Assembly: GCF_000452705.1 (NCBI RefSeq)
Contig: NZ_CP007014.1
Location: forward strand, 3,969,501-4,033,500
Direction of reading: 5' to 3'
Origin: Pseudomonas syringae CC1557
GTDB lineage: Bacteria; Pseudomonadota; Gammaproteobacteria; Pseudomonadales; Pseudomonadaceae
DNA length: 64,000 bases
Both the position numbers and the translations under genes were made by a program. Numbering within the stretch: the first letter of the stretch is position 1; every line of letters begins with the position of its first letter. The notes beneath the pieces are model-generated. The model was given only the letters and a program-made list of their open reading frames with translations, did no database searches and was not told the DNA's origin. Below are positions 16,464 to 51,747 of this stretch, piece by piece.

Positions 16464-17498
16464 ATGCAGACCCTGCGCCTTGGTGATATGTCGGTGGGGT
16501 TTATCCAGAGCCTGGCCGATGCGGTCAGCAGCTTTGATCAAGACCCAAACCCGCTCCTGGAGCAATACGGACTTGATCCTGCCCGTCTGAGCGAGGCCGG
16601 AGCGCGGCTGTCGATCCCGCGTTACATGCGCCTGGGCCATGCTGCCATCCAGCTGACCGGCCAGCCCGGACTGGGGTTGCGCATGGGTCAGCTCAGCCGT
16701 TTCGCGCAGGCGGGCCTGGCAGGCGTCACGGCCGCGCAGGCACCTACGGTGCGTGAGGCGGCACGTACCCTGATCCGTTTTGAAGCGTTGTATGGTTCCA
16801 ACTATCGCGGTCAGTCGAGCTTTCACGAGGATGCAGAAGGCGCGTGCATGCGCTTTTATTCCATCAGCCCCTACAACGCTTATAACCGGTTCGTGGTGGA
16901 CTCGATTCTGAGCGGCTGGCTCGCTCAACTGTCAGCGCTGGCCTGCTCCGAAGTGCGCGCGCAACGCATGGAAATCGAGTTCCAGGCGCCAGTCTACGAG
17001 GCGCTATACGCCAGCCTGAGCGACAACCCGATCCTGTTCGGCGCGACCACCAATCAACTACGCCTGGATCAGGCAAGCCTTGCATTACGCAACCCGAATC
17101 ACTGCCCGAGTACCTGGCGGCATCTGCTGCAATTGTGCGAAAGAGAACTCGAACAGCTGACCCGCACACGCAGCCTGCGTGAGCGCATCATTCAATTGCT
17201 TGGGCCATTGTTGAACGGCGGCAGGGAACCGGATCTGGAGGAAGTGGCGGCGAGGCTAAAGCTGCCGACCTGGACGCTGCGCCGCAAGCTGGCCGAGGAA
17301 GGAACGCAGTTTCGGGCAGTGCTCAATGACACGCGGCGTGATCTGGCAATGACCTATATCCGCGACACCGAACTGGCGTTCGGAGAGATCGCCTATCTGC
17401 TGGGGTTCGCCTCGGCCGAGGCCTTTCAACGCGCCTTTAAACGCTGGAACGGACAGACTCCGGGAGAATTCCGCCGCAGCCAGCGCCAAAGCGCCTGA
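16464..17498 (+). CDS. AraC-family transcriptional regulator (arabinose-binding-like domain)
   Basis: 344 residues from the ATG at 16464, two bases after the stop of the preceding gene; a TTG at 16458 would overlap it. The N-terminal 200 residues match the arabinose-binding-like sensor domain of OruR/ArgR-type AraC regulators, and the C-terminal 90 or so hold two helix-turn-helix units, with LPTWTLRRKLAEEG in the first and GFASAEAFQRAFKRW in the second. Such proteins usually activate neighbouring operons. The divergent fadH gene or the co-transcribed nitrilase-fold gene are plausible targets, but this is inferred from position only. Confidence 0.88.
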   Translation: MQTLRLGDMSVGFIQSLADAVSSFDQDPNPLLEQYGLDPARLSEAGARLSIPRYMRLGHAAIQLTGQPGLGLRMGQLSRFAQAGLAGVTAAQAPTVREAARTLIRFEALYGSNYRGQSSFHEDAEGACMRFYSISPYNAYNRFVVDSILSGWLAQLSALACSEVRAQRMEIEFQAPVYEALYASLSDNPILFGATTNQLRLDQASLALRNPNHCPSTWRHLLQLCERELEQLTRTRSLRERIIQLLGPLLNGGREPDLEEVAARLKLPTWTLRRKLAEEGTQFRAVLNDTRRDLAMTYIRDTELAFGEIAYLLGFASAEAFQRAFKRWNGQTPGEFRRSQRQSA

Positions 17499-17504
17499 CG
17501 CCGT

Positions 17505-17591
17505 TCACAGTTCGGTAGCGTCGTCGGCAGGCTCTACCGGGTCCAGCTCCGATGCACGGTATTCAAGTAGTTCTTCCTGGTATTCGTCCAT
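17505..17591 (-). CDS. Small acidic protein, 28 residues
   Basis: A complete small ORF from the ATG at 17589-17591 to TGA at 17505-17507, beginning MDEYQEELLEYRA and ending DDATEL. It is strongly acidic (roughly ten Asp/Glu) with one basic residue. An AGAGGG ribosome site sits about nine bases upstream. It points toward the AraC-type gene, ending seven bases from it. I do not recognise a family; coding status is supported by the start context and biased composition, and should be regarded as probable only. Confidence 0.5.
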   Translation of the reverse strand: MDEYQEELLEYRASELDPVEPADDATEL

Positions 17592-17687
17592 TTTCTTGCC
17601 CTCTGGCTGATTCAATGCGCTTGATAATCAAAACTGGAATAACTGACCGCAAGATCAACATTAAAGTGCCAATGTGAAACAAAAATG

Positions 17688-17716
17688 TTGATCCCCATCA
17701 AACAGACGAAAATATC
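17688..17716 (+). promoter_or_regulatory. Candidate sigma-70 promoter for the ilvA leader (distal)
   Basis: TTGATC (17688-17693), a 17-base spacer and AATATC (17711-17716). Transcription would begin near 17723 and give about 78 bases before the leader peptide start. It competes with the proximal candidate at 17764-17793. Confidence 0.35.
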
Positions 17717-17763
17717 TTCTGCGGATTCAGGGCGGTTATGCAGATAGATATAGACCGCCGCGC

Positions 17764-17793
17764 TTGACTTGACTGCCTGCACCGCCCTAACCT
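17764..17793 (+). promoter_or_regulatory. Candidate sigma-70 promoter for the ilvA leader (proximal)
   Basis: TTGACT (17764-17769), an 18-base spacer and TAACCT (17788-17793). The expected start site (17800-17801) would coincide with the A of the leader peptide ATG, giving a leaderless transcript. This would explain why no ribosome-binding site precedes that ATG. Confidence 0.4.
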
Positions 17794-17800
17794 CCTGCTC

Positions 17801-17866
17801 ATGAACCTCATCCAGCAACATCTCGGCCAAATTATTATTACCGTCATTCCAGTCATGGCGGGTTAG
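17801..17866 (+). CDS. ilvA leader peptide, 21 residues, Ile-rich
   Basis: An ORF of 21 codons and TAG starting MNLIQQHLGQ and carrying the run IIITVIPV at residues 11-18 (17831-17854), with five isoleucines in total, three consecutive, plus Val and Thr. Such a run directly upstream of an attenuator and of threonine deaminase, the first enzyme of isoleucine synthesis, is the hallmark of a branched-chain leader peptide: ribosomes stall at the Ile codons when charged tRNA-Ile is scarce. The last codons and the stop (17857-17864) also form one arm of the antiterminator. No Shine-Dalgarno sequence precedes the ATG, so initiation may be leaderless or unusual. Confidence 0.75.
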   Translation: MNLIQQHLGQIIITVIPVMAG

Positions 17867-17905
17867 CCGACGTTTGCAAAAGAACCCGCCCTGGAGGCGG
17901 GTTTT
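17857..17905 (+). terminator. ilvA transcription attenuator (terminator/antiterminator switch)
   Basis: The octamer GGCGGGTT occurs at 17857-17864 and again at 17896-17903. Both copies are perfectly complementary to AACCCGCC at 17883-17890. Pairing of 17883-17890 with the downstream copy gives an 8-bp stem, five-base loop and a T-run: an intrinsic terminator. Pairing with the upstream copy gives an antiterminator. The upstream copy overlaps the end of the leader ORF, so a ribosome that reaches the stop blocks it and allows termination, whereas one stalled at the Ile codons (17831-17839) leaves it free. Confidence 0.85.
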
Positions 17906-17945
17906 TTCTGTCTCCCGGGCAACATTACTTAGCCAGGAGTCAGAC

Positions 17946-18065
17946 ATGATCACCATCTTTCGTGCTATCGCCCTTCCCGCCTCCTTGAACCTGATGATCG
18001 GCCTGACGTCTGCTGCGGCGCGGCGCCTGCCTGAAGGGGCTACGCCTAAAGGATCAATGCGATGA
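17946..18065 (+). CDS. Upstream ORF overlapping the ilvA start
   Basis: 39 codons starting MITIFRAIALPASLNLMIG, preceded by an AGGAG site seven bases upstream and ending in TGA that overlaps the ilvA ATG (ATGA). It lies between the attenuator and ilvA. The first 19 residues are hydrophobic with four isoleucines; the rest is basic. It may be a second leader peptide or simply a translational-coupling device. No family is recognised; the good ribosome site and exact overlap are the evidence. Confidence 0.45.
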   Translation: MITIFRAIALPASLNLMIGLTSAAARRLPEGATPKGSMR

Positions 18066-19597
18066 GCCAAAGCGAGCCCGATCTGCTCAACCATTACGCA
18101 CGCAAGATACTCACCTCTCGCGTCTACGACGTCGCTATCGAAACGCCGCTGCAAGGCGCTCGCCAGCTCTCCGAACGGCTGGGCAATCAGGTGTTGCTCA
18201 AGCGCGAAGACTTGCAGCCGGTGTTCTCGTTCAAGATTCGCGGCGCCTACAACAAGCTCGCGCAACTGAGCGCAGAAGAAGCCGCACGCGGTGTTGTGAC
18301 GGCGTCGGCGGGTAACCATGCTCAAGGGCTGGCGCTGGCAGCGCGTGAGCTGGGCATTCTGGCGACCATCGTCATGCCGCGCACCACGCCGGAGATCAAG
18401 GTCGAAGGCGTGCGCTCGCGTGGGGCCACGGTGGTGCTGCATGGCGATTCGTTCCCCGAAGCGCTGGCCTACTCGCTGAAACTGGTCGATGAGCACGGCT
18501 TCGTCTATATCCACCCGTACGACGACCCTGACACCATTGCCGGGCAGGGCACTGTGGCGATGGAAATCCTTCGTCAGCAGCCGGGGCAACTGGACGCGAT
18601 TTTCGTACCGGTCGGTGGTGGTGGGTTGATTGCGGGTATTGCGGCGTATGTGAAATACCTGCGCCCGGAGATCAAGGTGATCGGCGTCGAGCCGGATGAT
18701 TCGAATTGCCTGCAAGCGGCGATGGCGGCGGGTGAGCGCGTGGTGCTGAGCCAGGTCGGGCTGTTCGCGGATGGCGTAGCAGTGGCGCAGATCGGTTATC
18801 ACACCTTTGAAGTGTGCCGCCATTACGTCGATGAAGTGATCACCGTCAGCACCGATGAGATCTGTGCGGCGATCAAAGACATCTACGACGACACTCGCTC
18901 GATCACCGAACCGTCGGGTGCTCTGGGCGTCGCGGGGATCAAGAAGTATGTCGAGCAGCGTGGCGTGAGTGGCCAGACGCTGGTGGCGATTGATTCCGGG
19001 GCCAACGCCAACTTTGATCGCTTGCGTCACGTGGCCGAGCGCGCCGAACTGGGTGAGGGCCGTGAGGCAATCATCGCCGTGACCATCCCCGAGCAGCCGG
19101 GCAGCTTCAAGGCGTTCTGCGAGGCCATCGGCAAGCGCCAGATCACTGAATTCAACTACCGCTACCACACCGACCGTGAAGCGCACATCTTCGTCGGCGT
19201 GCAGACCCATCCGGAAAACGATCCGCGCAGCGCACTGATCGCCAGCCTGACCGGGCAAGACTTTCCGGTGCTCGACCTGACCGATAACGAACTGGCCAAA
19301 CTACACATCCGCCATATGGTCGGCGGGCACGCCGAGCGGGTCGATGATGAAGTGGTGCTGCGCTTTGAATTTCCGGAGCGACCGGGCGCGCTGTTCAACT
19401 TCCTCAACCGCCTGGGCGGCCGCTGGACCATCTCGATGTTCCACTACCGCAACCACGGTGCAGCAGACGGTCGGGTGGTTGCCGGGCTGGTGGTACCTGA
19501 GGAAGAGCGGCATCTGGTGGGAGCAGCGCTGGACGAAATCGGTTATCGGTATTGGGATGAGAGCGAGAACCCGGCGTATCGGTTGTTTCTGGGCTGA
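18062..19597 (+). CDS. ilvA: Threonine ammonia-lyase (threonine deaminase), biosynthetic
   Basis: 511 residues, the length of biosynthetic IlvA. It converts L-threonine to 2-oxobutanoate and ammonia, the committed step to isoleucine. The PLP lysine is K58 in FSFKIRGAYNK, with SAGNHAQG at 82-89 and the phosphate loop GGGG at 185-188. Two ACT-like regulatory domains occupy about 330-510 and mediate feedback inhibition by isoleucine. The start has an AAAGGA site about ten bases upstream and overlaps the stop of a 39-codon ORF. Expression appears controlled by the Ile-responsive attenuator upstream. No other ilv gene is adjacent. Confidence 0.96.
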   Translation: MSQSEPDLLNHYARKILTSRVYDVAIETPLQGARQLSERLGNQVLLKREDLQPVFSFKIRGAYNKLAQLSAEEAARGVVTASAGNHAQGLALAARELGILATIVMPRTTPEIKVEGVRSRGATVVLHGDSFPEALAYSLKLVDEHGFVYIHPYDDPDTIAGQGTVAMEILRQQPGQLDAIFVPVGGGGLIAGIAAYVKYLRPEIKVIGVEPDDSNCLQAAMAAGERVVLSQVGLFADGVAVAQIGYHTFEVCRHYVDEVITVSTDEICAAIKDIYDDTRSITEPSGALGVAGIKKYVEQRGVSGQTLVAIDSGANANFDRLRHVAERAELGEGREAIIAVTIPEQPGSFKAFCEAIGKRQITEFNYRYHTDREAHIFVGVQTHPENDPRSALIASLTGQDFPVLDLTDNELAKLHIRHMVGGHAERVDDEVVLRFEFPERPGALFNFLNRLGGRWTISMFHYRNHGAADGRVVAGLVVPEEERHLVGAALDEIGYRYWDESENPAYRLFLG

Positions 19598-19796: not shown

Positions 19797-20618
19797 TCAC
19801 TGCGCTGGCGCAGTCTCGGTTGGCGCCGGGCTTTCTGTCGACTCAACCGCTGGCGTGTCGACGCTTTCTGCCTTGAACGATGCGGGCTCGGCTGGCGCTG
19901 GCAGCGGCTCGCTAGCAGCAGGCGGCGTGGCGGGTTCTGCAGCAGGCTTAATCTTGTGGGTCGACTCCTTGGCCTCCGGAGCCAATTTGGCAGGCTCAGT
20001 TGCTTTGGCCGGCTCCGCAGCAGCAGGTGCTGTATCAGGAACACCAAGGTCCGCTTTGGGCTTCTCGACAATATGCGCGGCCTTTTTCACTTCCGGTGGC
20101 AGGAAGTTTTCCACCAGACCAAAAAAGCGTTCATAGAACTTTGCAGACGACACGGTTTCGCTGGCAACCTTGACCATCGAATCATCAGTAGAGCCGATTG
20201 GCATCGACACAGAACCCAGCACCCCTACCCCCAGGCTTGCCGAGTTATTGGTCTTCTTCAGTGCATAACGGTCCTGCAGGGCGTTGGCGAACATGGTCGA
20301 ATTGCCCTCTTTCACGTCACCCGCGCACACCAGATTGAAGCTGATTTCGATATGGGCATCGCCGGTCTGCTGAAAGCTCTTGCGGCCACTGATCATCTTC
20401 GGGTCGCTACTGGTGATGATGTAGCCCTGACTCAGCAAAGCACGGCGCCCGGCCTCGCAATACGCCACGTCGGTCGCGGGGTAGCTGCGTGAGAACGTTC
20501 CAGCATCGTCGAAGTGCTCGTGATCATAAACCGCCTGTTTTGGAGACGAGGAACAGCCGGCGGCTGTCAGCAGGACAGCGGCCCAGAATGCGGTGCGAAG
20601 GTTCAATAGCTTAAACAT
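19797..20618 (-). CDS. DUF2242-like lipoprotein
   Basis: 273 residues from the ATG at 20616-20618, which has an AGGA site; a frame starting at 20690 is unsupported. The first 22 residues are a lipoprotein signal (LLTAAGC, lipidated C22). A globular domain follows to about residue 185, matching DUF2242 as I recall it; the tail is Ala/Pro/Glu-rich and probably unstructured, perhaps spanning the periplasm or reaching peptidoglycan. Function unknown. It stands alone between ilvA and the tRNA operon, convergent with ilvA. Confidence 0.75.
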   Translation of the reverse strand: MFKLLNLRTAFWAAVLLTAAGCSSSPKQAVYDHEHFDDAGTFSRSYPATDVAYCEAGRRALLSQGYIITSSDPKMISGRKSFQQTGDAHIEISFNLVCAGDVKEGNSTMFANALQDRYALKKTNNSASLGVGVLGSVSMPIGSTDDSMVKVASETVSSAKFYERFFGLVENFLPPEVKKAAHIVEKPKADLGVPDTAPAAAEPAKATEPAKLAPEAKESTHKIKPAAEPATPPAASEPLPAPAEPASFKAESVDTPAVESTESPAPTETAPAQ

Positions 20619-20853: not shown

Positions 20854-20930
20854 TGGCGCAGCGGACGGGACTCGAACCCGCGACCCCCGGCGTGACAGGC
20901 CGGTATTCTAACCGACTGAACTACCGCTGC
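20854..20930 (-). tRNA. tRNA-Asp (GTC)
   Basis: 77 bases including encoded CCA. The acceptor stem pairs GCAGCGG with CCGCTGC, the anticodon loop reads CTGTCAC (anticodon GTC) and the T loop is GGTTCGAGTCC. Identical in sequence to the second tRNA-Asp gene 115 bp away. Confidence 0.97.
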
Positions 20931-21045
20931 GTATCGCTGTAAACCTGCTTGAAACAAACCTGATGTAGTTTGCTTCCTGTACATCTGACTGAAAGGCCCT
21001 TGAGCTTTTCAATCGCAGACCCGGCGAACCCGGTCTGTACAAATA

Positions 21046-21122
21046 TGGCGCAGCGGACGGGACTCGAACCCGCGACCCCCGGCGTGACAGGCCGGTATTC
21101 TAACCGACTGAACTACCGCTGC
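21046..21122 (-). tRNA. tRNA-Asp (GTC), second copy
   Basis: 77 bases including encoded CCA, identical to the copy at 20854-20930, anticodon GTC. It lies between the tRNA-Val and the other tRNA-Asp in one minus-strand operon. Confidence 0.97.
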
Positions 21123-21182
21123 GCATTGTGTACTGTTTTCTGCATCTGGAAGCTCTCGAACTTCAACTTCCAAACTCAACGA

Positions 21183-21258
21183 TGGTGGGTGATGACGGGA
21201 TCGAACCGCCGACCCGCTGCTTGTAAGGCAGCTGCTCTCCCAGCTGAGCTAATCACCC
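21183..21258 (-). tRNA. tRNA-Val (TAC)
   Basis: 76 bases including encoded CCA. The acceptor stem pairs GGGTGAT with ATCACCC, the anticodon loop is CTTACAA (anticodon TAC), and the D and T arms are canonical. First gene of the Val-Asp-Asp operon. Confidence 0.97.
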
Positions 21259-21308: not shown

Positions 21309-21407
21309 TAGCCTGATTGAAGTTTTTTAAAAACCCGCCTCAATCGCAAAACCCTTACCACACATCAAAACTACAGCACAGAGTCAATCGCAGCACACTG
21401 CTCGAAA

Positions 21408-37174: not shown

Positions 37175-37366
37175 CGATAACCTCGACCCGATTCAAATAA
37201 CCACCGCACGCCTCAAATGGCTATGCGTCCGGAATCCATGATGTTTTTACCATTGCGCAGCGTTGCCCTCGTTTTCATCAGCTTATCGAGGACTCAAGAA
37301 GCGTTTTAGTATTCCAAAACTGTTTAAAAAACGAACAGAAGACACTGGACGGGACGCCATCCTGGG

Positions 37367-37373
37367 CAATACT
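37367..37373 (+). promoter_or_regulatory. RpoS-like -10 element of the sRNA gene
   Basis: CAATACT, six of seven bases matching the sigma-S consensus CTATACT, about seven bases before the proposed RNA start. RgsA is known to depend on RpoS in Pseudomonas. Confidence 0.5.
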
Positions 37374-37378
37374 CAAGA

Positions 37379-37497
37379 CGCTGGCGCCTCATTCCCCCAA
37401 ATGGTGCGCCCGTAAAGGTACCAATGGATGACGTGCCTTTGTTTTACTCCTAATGGTCTTAACCCGGCTTCACCCCCCCAGAATCCGGGTTTTTTTT
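37379..37497 (+). ncRNA. rgsA: Probable RgsA small regulatory RNA
   Basis: No ORF is present, but a strong intrinsic terminator ends at 37497 (AACCCGG at 37461-37467 pairing with CCGGGTT at 37485-37491, then T-run) and a sigma-S-like -10 lies at 37367-37373. The resulting RNA of about 119 nt, next to and opposing tatD, matches the place and size of RgsA (P16), an RpoS- and Gac-linked stress sRNA in other Pseudomonas. Identity is by location and architecture; the sequence was not aligned. Confidence 0.65.
37461..37497 (+). terminator. Intrinsic terminator of the sRNA
   Basis: Seven-base-pair stem AACCCGG/CCGGGTT with a C-rich loop, followed by a run of six or more Ts. Plus-strand orientation; no protein gene precedes it, which is what marks the RNA gene. 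Confidence 0.85.
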
Positions 37498-51095: not shown

Positions 51096-51747
51096 CGCCG
51101 CCATAAGCGGCCGGACAGCGGATCAACGGTTGACAACCGGCCCTGACCAACGCAATTCACGAGGACGCGAGGCCGTCCTACTGGGCGTTCGGTGACAACG
51201 GAGCACGATGAAAGCGTAACAGGCGCAGGTGACATGAGGCCGGATACACGCCCGACAGCAGAGCAGACAGCTCGCCGTCGGTGCGGACAGTTCATGGCCA
51301 GTTCACAAAGTGCAGTCGCTTCCAGACGCAACGAGCGAACGCTTCGGGAACAACGCCTCAAGCCATGATGCGCAGTCTTCCCTTTCGAAGATTGCGGTAA
51401 ATGCCAACCCGCTGCGGATTCTGCGCGCGGCAGCACCCGAATTATCAGGGATACGTGTAGGGTGGAGACGCACAACCATCGGACTGTGTAGCACAAGGCT
51501 TGTTCTAGACGCTTCATCTCGTCCGCTACCGATGGTCGATTCCTCCTCCTGACAAAGCTTTTGCTGAAAGGGTGTCTTATGCCACCACAGCAAGCAGGAA
51601 ACGTCGTCGCGACCCTCCGCCCCCTCTGGGCGAGGATCTCGCTAGACACTGGAGTGTTCAACCACTCCTGACGTGCCCTGACACCGACCGTGAGAAGTCG
51701 TGTGTGCCGAACGCCGTTTCCGGCAGCCCGGAAACCGACGGTACTAC
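51096..51747 (+). other. Long structured rne 5' leader
   Basis: About 650 noncoding bases between the predicted promoter and rne. Visible hairpins include CGGTT/AACCG (51127-51139) and AGGACG/CGTCCT (51162-51179). No convincing ORF is present. In other bacteria the rne leader is bound and cut by RNase E to autoregulate its level, and a rne-II motif has been described upstream of rne in Pseudomonadales; this stretch is the place for it. Which segment forms it was not computed. Confidence 0.65.

Follow-up and report, generated by a model that had tools for sequence, protein, structure and literature searches.

We propose that the ilvA gene of Pseudomonas syringae CC1557 is preceded by a ribosome-mediated transcription attenuator that senses charged tRNA-Ile and is read from the first base of its transcript, an interpretation that we consider very probable. 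The element lies in a 64,000-nucleotide stretch of the genome, referred to here as the window, and its parts, their conservation and covariation, and its promoter spacing are apparent from the sequence and from comparison with relatives. A sequence-only reading of the window had suggested an Ile-codon transcription attenuator in front of ilvA; that suggestion is now strengthened by a reading frame kept among relatives, enrichment of Ile codons, covarying helices and a switch between structures in folding calculations.

The element has the predicted layout of a full 1:2/2:3/3:4 attenuator (Table 1): a putative translated ORF rich in codons for the end product, a protector 1:2 hairpin that overlaps the codons after the control codons, and an antiterminator and an intrinsic terminator made mutually exclusive by their shared segment 3. 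What follows is a gene from the control amino acid's own pathway, ilvA here and a CimA-like gene or ileS elsewhere. The sequence-only reading had placed Ile at leader codons 11, 12, 13 and 16 and had found the octamer GGCGGGTT twice, at 17857-17864 and 17896-17903, with its complement AACCCGCC at 17883-17890; the translated sequence and the positions agree with it exactly. The first octamer copy does overlap the last codons of the leader, as segment 2 falls within the end of the ORF, and the T tail attributed to the terminator is present as a run at 17902-17907, after segment 4. To that description the present analysis adds an Ile at codon 4, segment 1, a basal helix termed P0 that joins leader codons (5-9 in the window) with bases after the stop, the promoter spacing, and a hairpin on the next Shine-Dalgarno sequence.

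Table 1. Positions of the attenuator, its putative promoter and the downstream reading frames, numbered from the first base of the window.
Feature	Position	Strand	Basis or remark
-35 box TTGACT, 5/6 to consensus	17764..17769	+	TTGAC- in 137/149 loci, looser scan
-10 box TAACCT, 3/6 to consensus, 18 nt after the -35 box	17788..17793	+	Spacing kept in relatives
Predicted start of transcription, on the A of the leader's ATG (leaderless)	17801..17801	+	Promoter spacing and no Shine-Dalgarno sequence
Leader ORF, 21 codons, MNLIQQHLGQIIITVIPVMAG and stop	17801..17866	+	Translation; relatives keep the frame and length
P0, 5′ strand, leader codons 5-9	17815..17827	+	Own pairing better than permuted
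Control codons Ile-Ile-Ile, ATT ATT ATT (codons 11-13)	17831..17839	+	Ile enrichment in leaders
Match to Rfam RF00624, 'Pseudomonas sRNA P9'	17831..17905	+	88.8 bits, E 8.3e-18, gathering score 43
Segment 1, CCGTCAT, pairs with 17855-17861	17841..17847	+	Covariation
Further Ile codon, leader codon 16	17846-17848	+	
Segment 2, ATGGCGGGTT, overlapping the leader ORF at its end	17855..17864	+	
P0, 3′ strand, from the end of the stop codon	17866..17877	+	
Segment 3, AACCCGCC	17883..17890	+	Pairs with 17857-17864 (antiterminator) or 17896-17903 (terminator)
Segment 4 (GGCGGGTT) with the intrinsic terminator's T tract	17896..17907	+	98.9% of cells paired, 78 sequences
Anti-Shine-Dalgarno strand, TCTGTCTCC	17907..17915	+	Own pairing better than permuted, 0/5000
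Shine-Dalgarno region of the next ORF, CCAGGAGTCAGAC	17933..17945	+	Predicted pairing with 17907-17915
Second small ORF, 39 aa, MITIFRAIAL..., several Ile codons	17946..18065	+	Stop and ilvA start overlap in ATGA
ilvA, 511 aa threonine dehydratase, two C-terminal regulatory stretches	18062..19597	+	Profile

The arrangement of octamers distinguishes this site within the window. One more copy of GGCGGGTT occurs at 19929, and AACCCGCC is also found at 21332 and 36715. A pattern script for perfect-octamer terminators returned eight matches, three on the plus and five on the minus strand, in a count where several registers of one hairpin may each be included; the terminator of the ilvA leader was the single one of the eight whose 3′ arm is duplicated just upstream. 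A consensus scanner run over 17300-18300 did not list the terminator before ilvA.

Relatives were compared in alignment A1, which holds 78 leader rows thinned at 95% similarity, and in sets of 149 fetched and 87 later loci, which are not all distinct, some places having been fetched twice (e.g., L033/L180 and L148/L192). Isoleucine makes up 17.3% of the residues in the 78 leaders versus 5.2% in five window proteins, with two to five Ile codons in each leader, and ATT accounts for 240 of the 282 leader Ile codons versus 26 of 118 in the five proteins. The second core Ile is replaced by Met (MIM) in seven leaders (L212, L215, L219, L220, L223, L224, and L227), so that their Ile run is weakened. 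Residues in the N-terminal halves of the leaders vary freely, with frame and length kept, and in five of the 149 loci a one-base gap in the 1:2 loop shifts the tail and moves the stop with the stems kept, an argument against the peptide tail having a function. These features also bear on the idea that the element is a metabolite riboswitch or a T-box and not a translated leader, which we regard as highly improbable. T-boxes do stand before ileS in Actinobacteria, according to the accessible portion of one report (PMC1262725), but a reading frame is kept in the variable part of the leader, the stems are untouched where tail and stop have shifted, and P9 is the one Rfam family called at the ilvA leader at its gathering score, with no T-box or riboswitch match at the cut-off.

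The helices were examined in A1 with shuffle tests that leave the relatedness of the sequences in place. Helix 1:2 was paired in 89.9% of cells and 12 cells had changed on both sides, a level of covariation reached in none of 500 shuffles. Both the 3:4 terminator helix and the 2:3 antiterminator helix, the latter paired in 91.5% of cells, showed little variation. Covariation in 2:3 was slight (a single cell with both sides altered, a level that 16 of 500 shuffles reached) because its strands are nearly invariant. For P0, a spacer's own partners beat permuted ones, with none of 5000 permutations as good among 21 representatives and none of 2000 among the 78 sequences; in four of the 21 representatives (L041, L142, L210, and L215), the leader's own spacer is outdone by most of the others.

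Folding calculations reproduced a switch. When the nascent RNA was folded as it stands before segment 4 exists, helix 1:2 formed in 65 of the 78 sequences and helix 2:3 in five; folding without leader codons 2-10 gave 1:2 in 34 and 2:3 in 43; and masking of the first 19 nt from the Ile core as the footprint of a stalled ribosome gave 2:3 in 76 of 78 foldings. For the window, the computed energy of P0 together with 1:2 was -17.9 kcal/mol versus -13.9 kcal/mol for 2:3. The covarying 1:2 hairpin and the basal helix P0 are predicted by these models to favor termination.

We next consider how the leader begins. In the window, the leader ATG starts 7 nt past the -10 box, and the positions of the two boxes are the reason that A17801 is the predicted transcription start. 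A promoter was defined as a TTGxxx box (at least 4/6) and TAxxxT separated by 16-19 nt, and was sought in the 149 fetched loci having the core and the terminator. It was present in 141, in 139 of which the first ATG lies 6-8 nt after the -10 box; in the other two, by reading, an earlier ATG intervenes and an in-frame ATG lies 7 nt away. Random ATGs from the same loci had such a promoter in 229 of 20,000 draws. In 139 of the 141 loci, the ATG is in frame with the Ile core, their distance being divisible by three. None of the 78 leader starts carries a Shine-Dalgarno-like sequence (AGGA, GGAG, or GAGG at -17 to -4). A consensus scanner requiring 9/12 matches reported no promoter in 17300-18300, the -10 match being weak. 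Given that the predicted start falls on the A of the ATG and that a Shine-Dalgarno sequence is lacking in the 78 leaders, the P9 leader is probably leaderless.

From these parts we infer transcript ends, ribosome stalling and a response to isoleucine, as follows. RNA polymerase would start on the A of the leader ATG, and the ribosome would consequently begin at the 5′ end without a Shine-Dalgarno sequence. When isoleucine is ample, the ribosome would run on to the stop codon, where it would occlude segment 2 together with the 3′ strand of P0, and the terminator would form from segments 3 and 4; the terminated RNA of about 105 nt would be the P9 'sRNA'. When isoleucyl-tRNA is short, the ribosome would stall at Ile codons 11-13, cover segment 1 and open P0, whereupon segment 2 would pair with segment 3 and transcription would proceed into ilvA. 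With no ribosome on the leader, P0 and 1:2 would win and transcription would stop. Translation of ilvA would be reached via a second small ORF, whose Shine-Dalgarno sequence lies in a predicted hairpin.

Pairing of that Shine-Dalgarno sequence with a TCTCC strand after the terminator was matched in quality by none of 5000 permutations. The Shine-Dalgarno sequence was also less accessible with the real spacer than with shuffled spacers (accessibility 0.16 versus 0.33; lower in 38 of 60), so that the hairpin is real in folding. A dual switch acting on translation as well was rejected, as the Shine-Dalgarno sequence stays closed when the antiterminator is forced (mean accessibility 0.16 versus 0.19; 76 of 78 sequences). 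The ATGA overlap with the next start is found in 29 of 31 distinct comparable second ORFs, a count that leaves out a 32nd row representing a broken SnoaL-like gene, and the second small ORF may couple the translation of ilvA.

The RF00624 match runs from the Ile codons to the terminator, and a search with both the Rfam model and our model R2 found one copy in the CC1557 genome, in keeping with the single-gene attenuator described by the sequence-only reading. P9 matches were present in 299 of 398 genus genomes, 290 of them above the cut-off, and lacking in 99; the Ile run and the octamer, whose conservation in relatives that reading had set as a test, are kept, along with covarying stems, to a degree that exceeds chance. 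In the family, genus included, 89 of 198 genomes and eight of 19 genera had a match; none of 14 control genomes did. ilvA is downstream in all 43 of the best-scoring fetched loci (L001-L043), where several ilvA matches are partial, ending with contigs or, in L002, covering residues 409-511 only. It is also downstream in 84 of the 87 later loci (L142-L229 without L205), with a SnoaL-like gene between leader and ilvA in 11 of those 84; in the remaining three loci, the leader precedes a SnoaL-like gene, which in two cases is followed by a kinase. In L226 and L228, a single Ile leader is followed by a SnoaL-like gene and then an AAA_33-type kinase gene, and the stretch lacks ilvA. As a separate observation, ilvA copies may be interrupted in L002 and in L193, where the match covers residues 254-327. 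The weaker P9 matches L044-L061 do not precede ilvA; among these 18, 11 are leaders of the same design with a SnoaL-like or kinase gene behind them, and the seven others (L049-L053, L059, and L061) resemble terminators that arose by chance. The loci outside the combined pattern number 11, namely the seven chance-like ones and four true-looking leaders (L045, L047, L048, and L058).

The conserved position bears on whether P9 acts mainly as a small RNA in trans, its location before ilvA and its leader ORF being secondary, a view that we find quite unlikely. P9 is catalogued in Rfam as an sRNA gene and is named, in the accessible text of PMC2375449, among the sRNAs detected by Livny et al. (2006), and the terminated leader of Sinorhizobium trpL acts in trans according to the part of that report at hand (PMC7298713). 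The position before ilvA, SnoaL-like or kinase genes is nevertheless kept, and the conserved features are Ile codons, a reading frame and exclusive helices. A role in trans would not exclude attenuation.

Other structured RNAs are present in the window. Rfam matches to the RgsA sRNA and the rne-II leader lie at 37295-37488 and 51451-51738, respectively, and three tRNA genes stand close together on the minus strand at 20857-21258.

Having described the switch, we turned to the gene behind it. The CC1557 genome contains a second ilvA copy (C1:247899), 98% identical over residues 7-511, and no attenuator was seen by eye in about 500 bases upstream of its start. A tree of 84 threonine dehydratases was built, with a root for drawing only and with rows marked long that include some whose end falls outside the fetched stretch. 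In this tree, 56 attenuated genes cluster together (support 96/100), separately from the 15 unattenuated genes; 10 of the 15 are grouped with 10 attenuated genes and five stand at the base of that group. The 10 attenuated genes in this ilvA1 group include that of the window and, by name, those of P. cerasi, P. maioricensis, and P. viridiflava. CC1557 and its kin have an ilvA1-type gene behind the attenuator, the simplest reading being that an older attenuator stayed in place while its downstream gene was replaced or converted. Forms that close before 400 residues are found in three distant genes and, within the family, in two separate clades, and the one example tested by profile, L017, has no regulatory domain; the two clades may reflect two losses of this domain.

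The search was extended beyond the family with models R1 (E ≤ 0.01) and R2 (E ≤ 0.001), both built from these leaders. R1 matched 48 of 293 order genomes and 17 of 321 class genomes, many of these matches being chance terminators. Judged by eye, 19 of 24 fetched loci from other families of the order have a leader and a terminator of the P9 design, and the other five (L260-L264) were considered chance; in the class, four of 19 new loci looked true (L265, L266, L267, and L281) and 15 did not. A promoter-like pair scored well in 20 of the 23 true-looking loci outside the family in a looser scan, which found none in L257 and L258; L249 was entered from its second ATG, and its pair stands before the first. 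None of the 23 leaders of other families has a Shine-Dalgarno-like sequence from a narrower motif set. R2 matched 33 of 359 phylum genomes, six of them outside the class; L289, whose sequence is incomplete, was left out of the judgment of the R2 loci. Among the six leaders outside the class, whose likeness was judged by eye, three (L293, L295, and L303) have a single Ile codon. Four further R2 matches (L299, L302, L304, and L305) are leaders with Thr and Ile codons before an aspartokinase-like gene, named by reading; they look like thr attenuators, so that R2 also reaches classical relatives. By these comparisons, the P9 leader appears as one member of a wider class that extends to other Proteobacteria.

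The genes behind these distant leaders are diverse. L253, L257, and L258 have a threonine dehydratase without the C-terminal domain, by profile. A citramalate-synthase-like gene has CimA as its best model (613 bits, below the cut-off of 950, for a 472 aa piece), and ileS follows a further leader (TIGR00392, 579 bits, below the cut-off of 621, for a 489 aa piece). Profiles also identified a SnoaL-like protein in L265, a GNAT enzyme in L281, and P-loop kinases of two kinds, AAA_33 and one weakly related to a 'DNA topology modulation protein' model; further downstream genes outside the family were named by reading, without a profile.

Within the genus, the SnoaL-like gene is rare, being found in five of 149 genomes, and three of the five carry the leader; of the homologues without an intact leader, L312 has none by model or by eye and the leader in L314 has in-frame stops. 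The kinase homologue occurs in 36 of the 149 genomes and has a leader in five of 30 fetched loci; the copy in the CC1557 genome (L333) has none. The notion that homologues of these genes are generally leader-borne is thereby ruled out for the kinase, whose link is partial and holds for a subset.

The diversity of downstream genes raises the question of whether the attenuator responds whenever the ribosome slows on the leader, for instance under inhibitors, instead of to isoleucine supply as such. The small kinases, the SnoaL-like proteins and the GNAT enzyme behind leaders elsewhere have no known place in isoleucine synthesis, and a few distant leaders hold a single Ile codon, as such a general response would allow. 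However, isoleucine is what connects ilvA, the CimA-like gene and ileS, and the feature that the 78 leaders in A1 have in common is their Ile codons. We therefore think a general response unlikely and favor a sensor of isoleucyl-tRNA.

Classical leader-peptide attenuators precede the thr, ilv, leu, and trp genes of E. coli. The P9 leader shares with them a leader ORF with control codons, the 1:2, 2:3 and 3:4 helices and an intrinsic terminator. It differs in having no Shine-Dalgarno sequence, a predicted 5′ end at the ATG and the extra basal helix P0, and leaders of its type precede ileS, a CimA-like enzyme and uncharacterized families. The Rfam model describes the same sequence as the ilvA leader, but its 74 positions, typed as a gene, leave out the leader start, the promoter and P0.

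Leaders closer in design are known from other bacteria. According to the accessible text of the reports, the attenuator leaders of Sinorhizobium meliloti trpL and Corynebacterium ilvBNC are leaderless or free of a ribosome binding site (PMC7298713; PMC11857589; PMC4046766), and leaderless attenuator leaders also include Cys-responsive small ORFs of mycobacteria, which we know through citation. As far as these sources show, all have, as predicted for P9, a 5′ end at the start codon or no ribosome binding site, but concern other amino acids or genes in other bacteria. The uORF motifs before ilvB (ilvB-II, ilvB-OMG, and ilvB), proposed as attenuators in the available part of PMC10272879, are likewise small ORFs rich in branched-chain amino acids before an ilv gene; judged from their description, they belong to another gene and are other RNAs. 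Naville and Gautheret (2010; PMC2965389) described attenuators hopping between genes and exchanges of sensing systems; the main text, in its accessible form, contains neither ilvA nor threonine dehydratase and mentions Pseudomonas for the rpsL and rnk leaders only. The sequence-only reading had named no earlier description of the element, which proves to be catalogued as P9; within the open-licence literature, we found no paper on P9 by name and no account of it as an attenuator, which does not imply absence from print. New here are the probably leaderless leader, the full predicted attenuator with P0, the same design in other families, and the two clades with a short ilvA.

A broader picture, which we offer tentatively and hold to be possible more than likely, is that leaderless sensors of tRNA-Ile charging are widespread among Proteobacteria and that the P9 leader is one of them. 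The regulon would extend past isoleucine synthesis to IleRS and to SnoaL-like, P-loop kinase and GNAT proteins that may be protective when isoleucyl-tRNA runs out, whether they remove by-products of threonine dehydratase or act on IleRS inhibitors. In Pseudomonadaceae, the sensor would have been kept while the regulatory domain of the enzyme was lost twice.

For the catalogued 'sRNA' P9, our findings provide a candidate function, and they link groups of uncharacterized proteins to isoleucine supply. Pseudomonas genes usually have Shine-Dalgarno sequences, and the P9 leader is a candidate case of leaderless translation used as a regulatory sensor in this genus. The relationship between leader and gene suggests, in addition, that regulation and enzyme are exchanged separately, the sensor staying in place while the gene behind it is replaced or does without a regulatory domain of its own.
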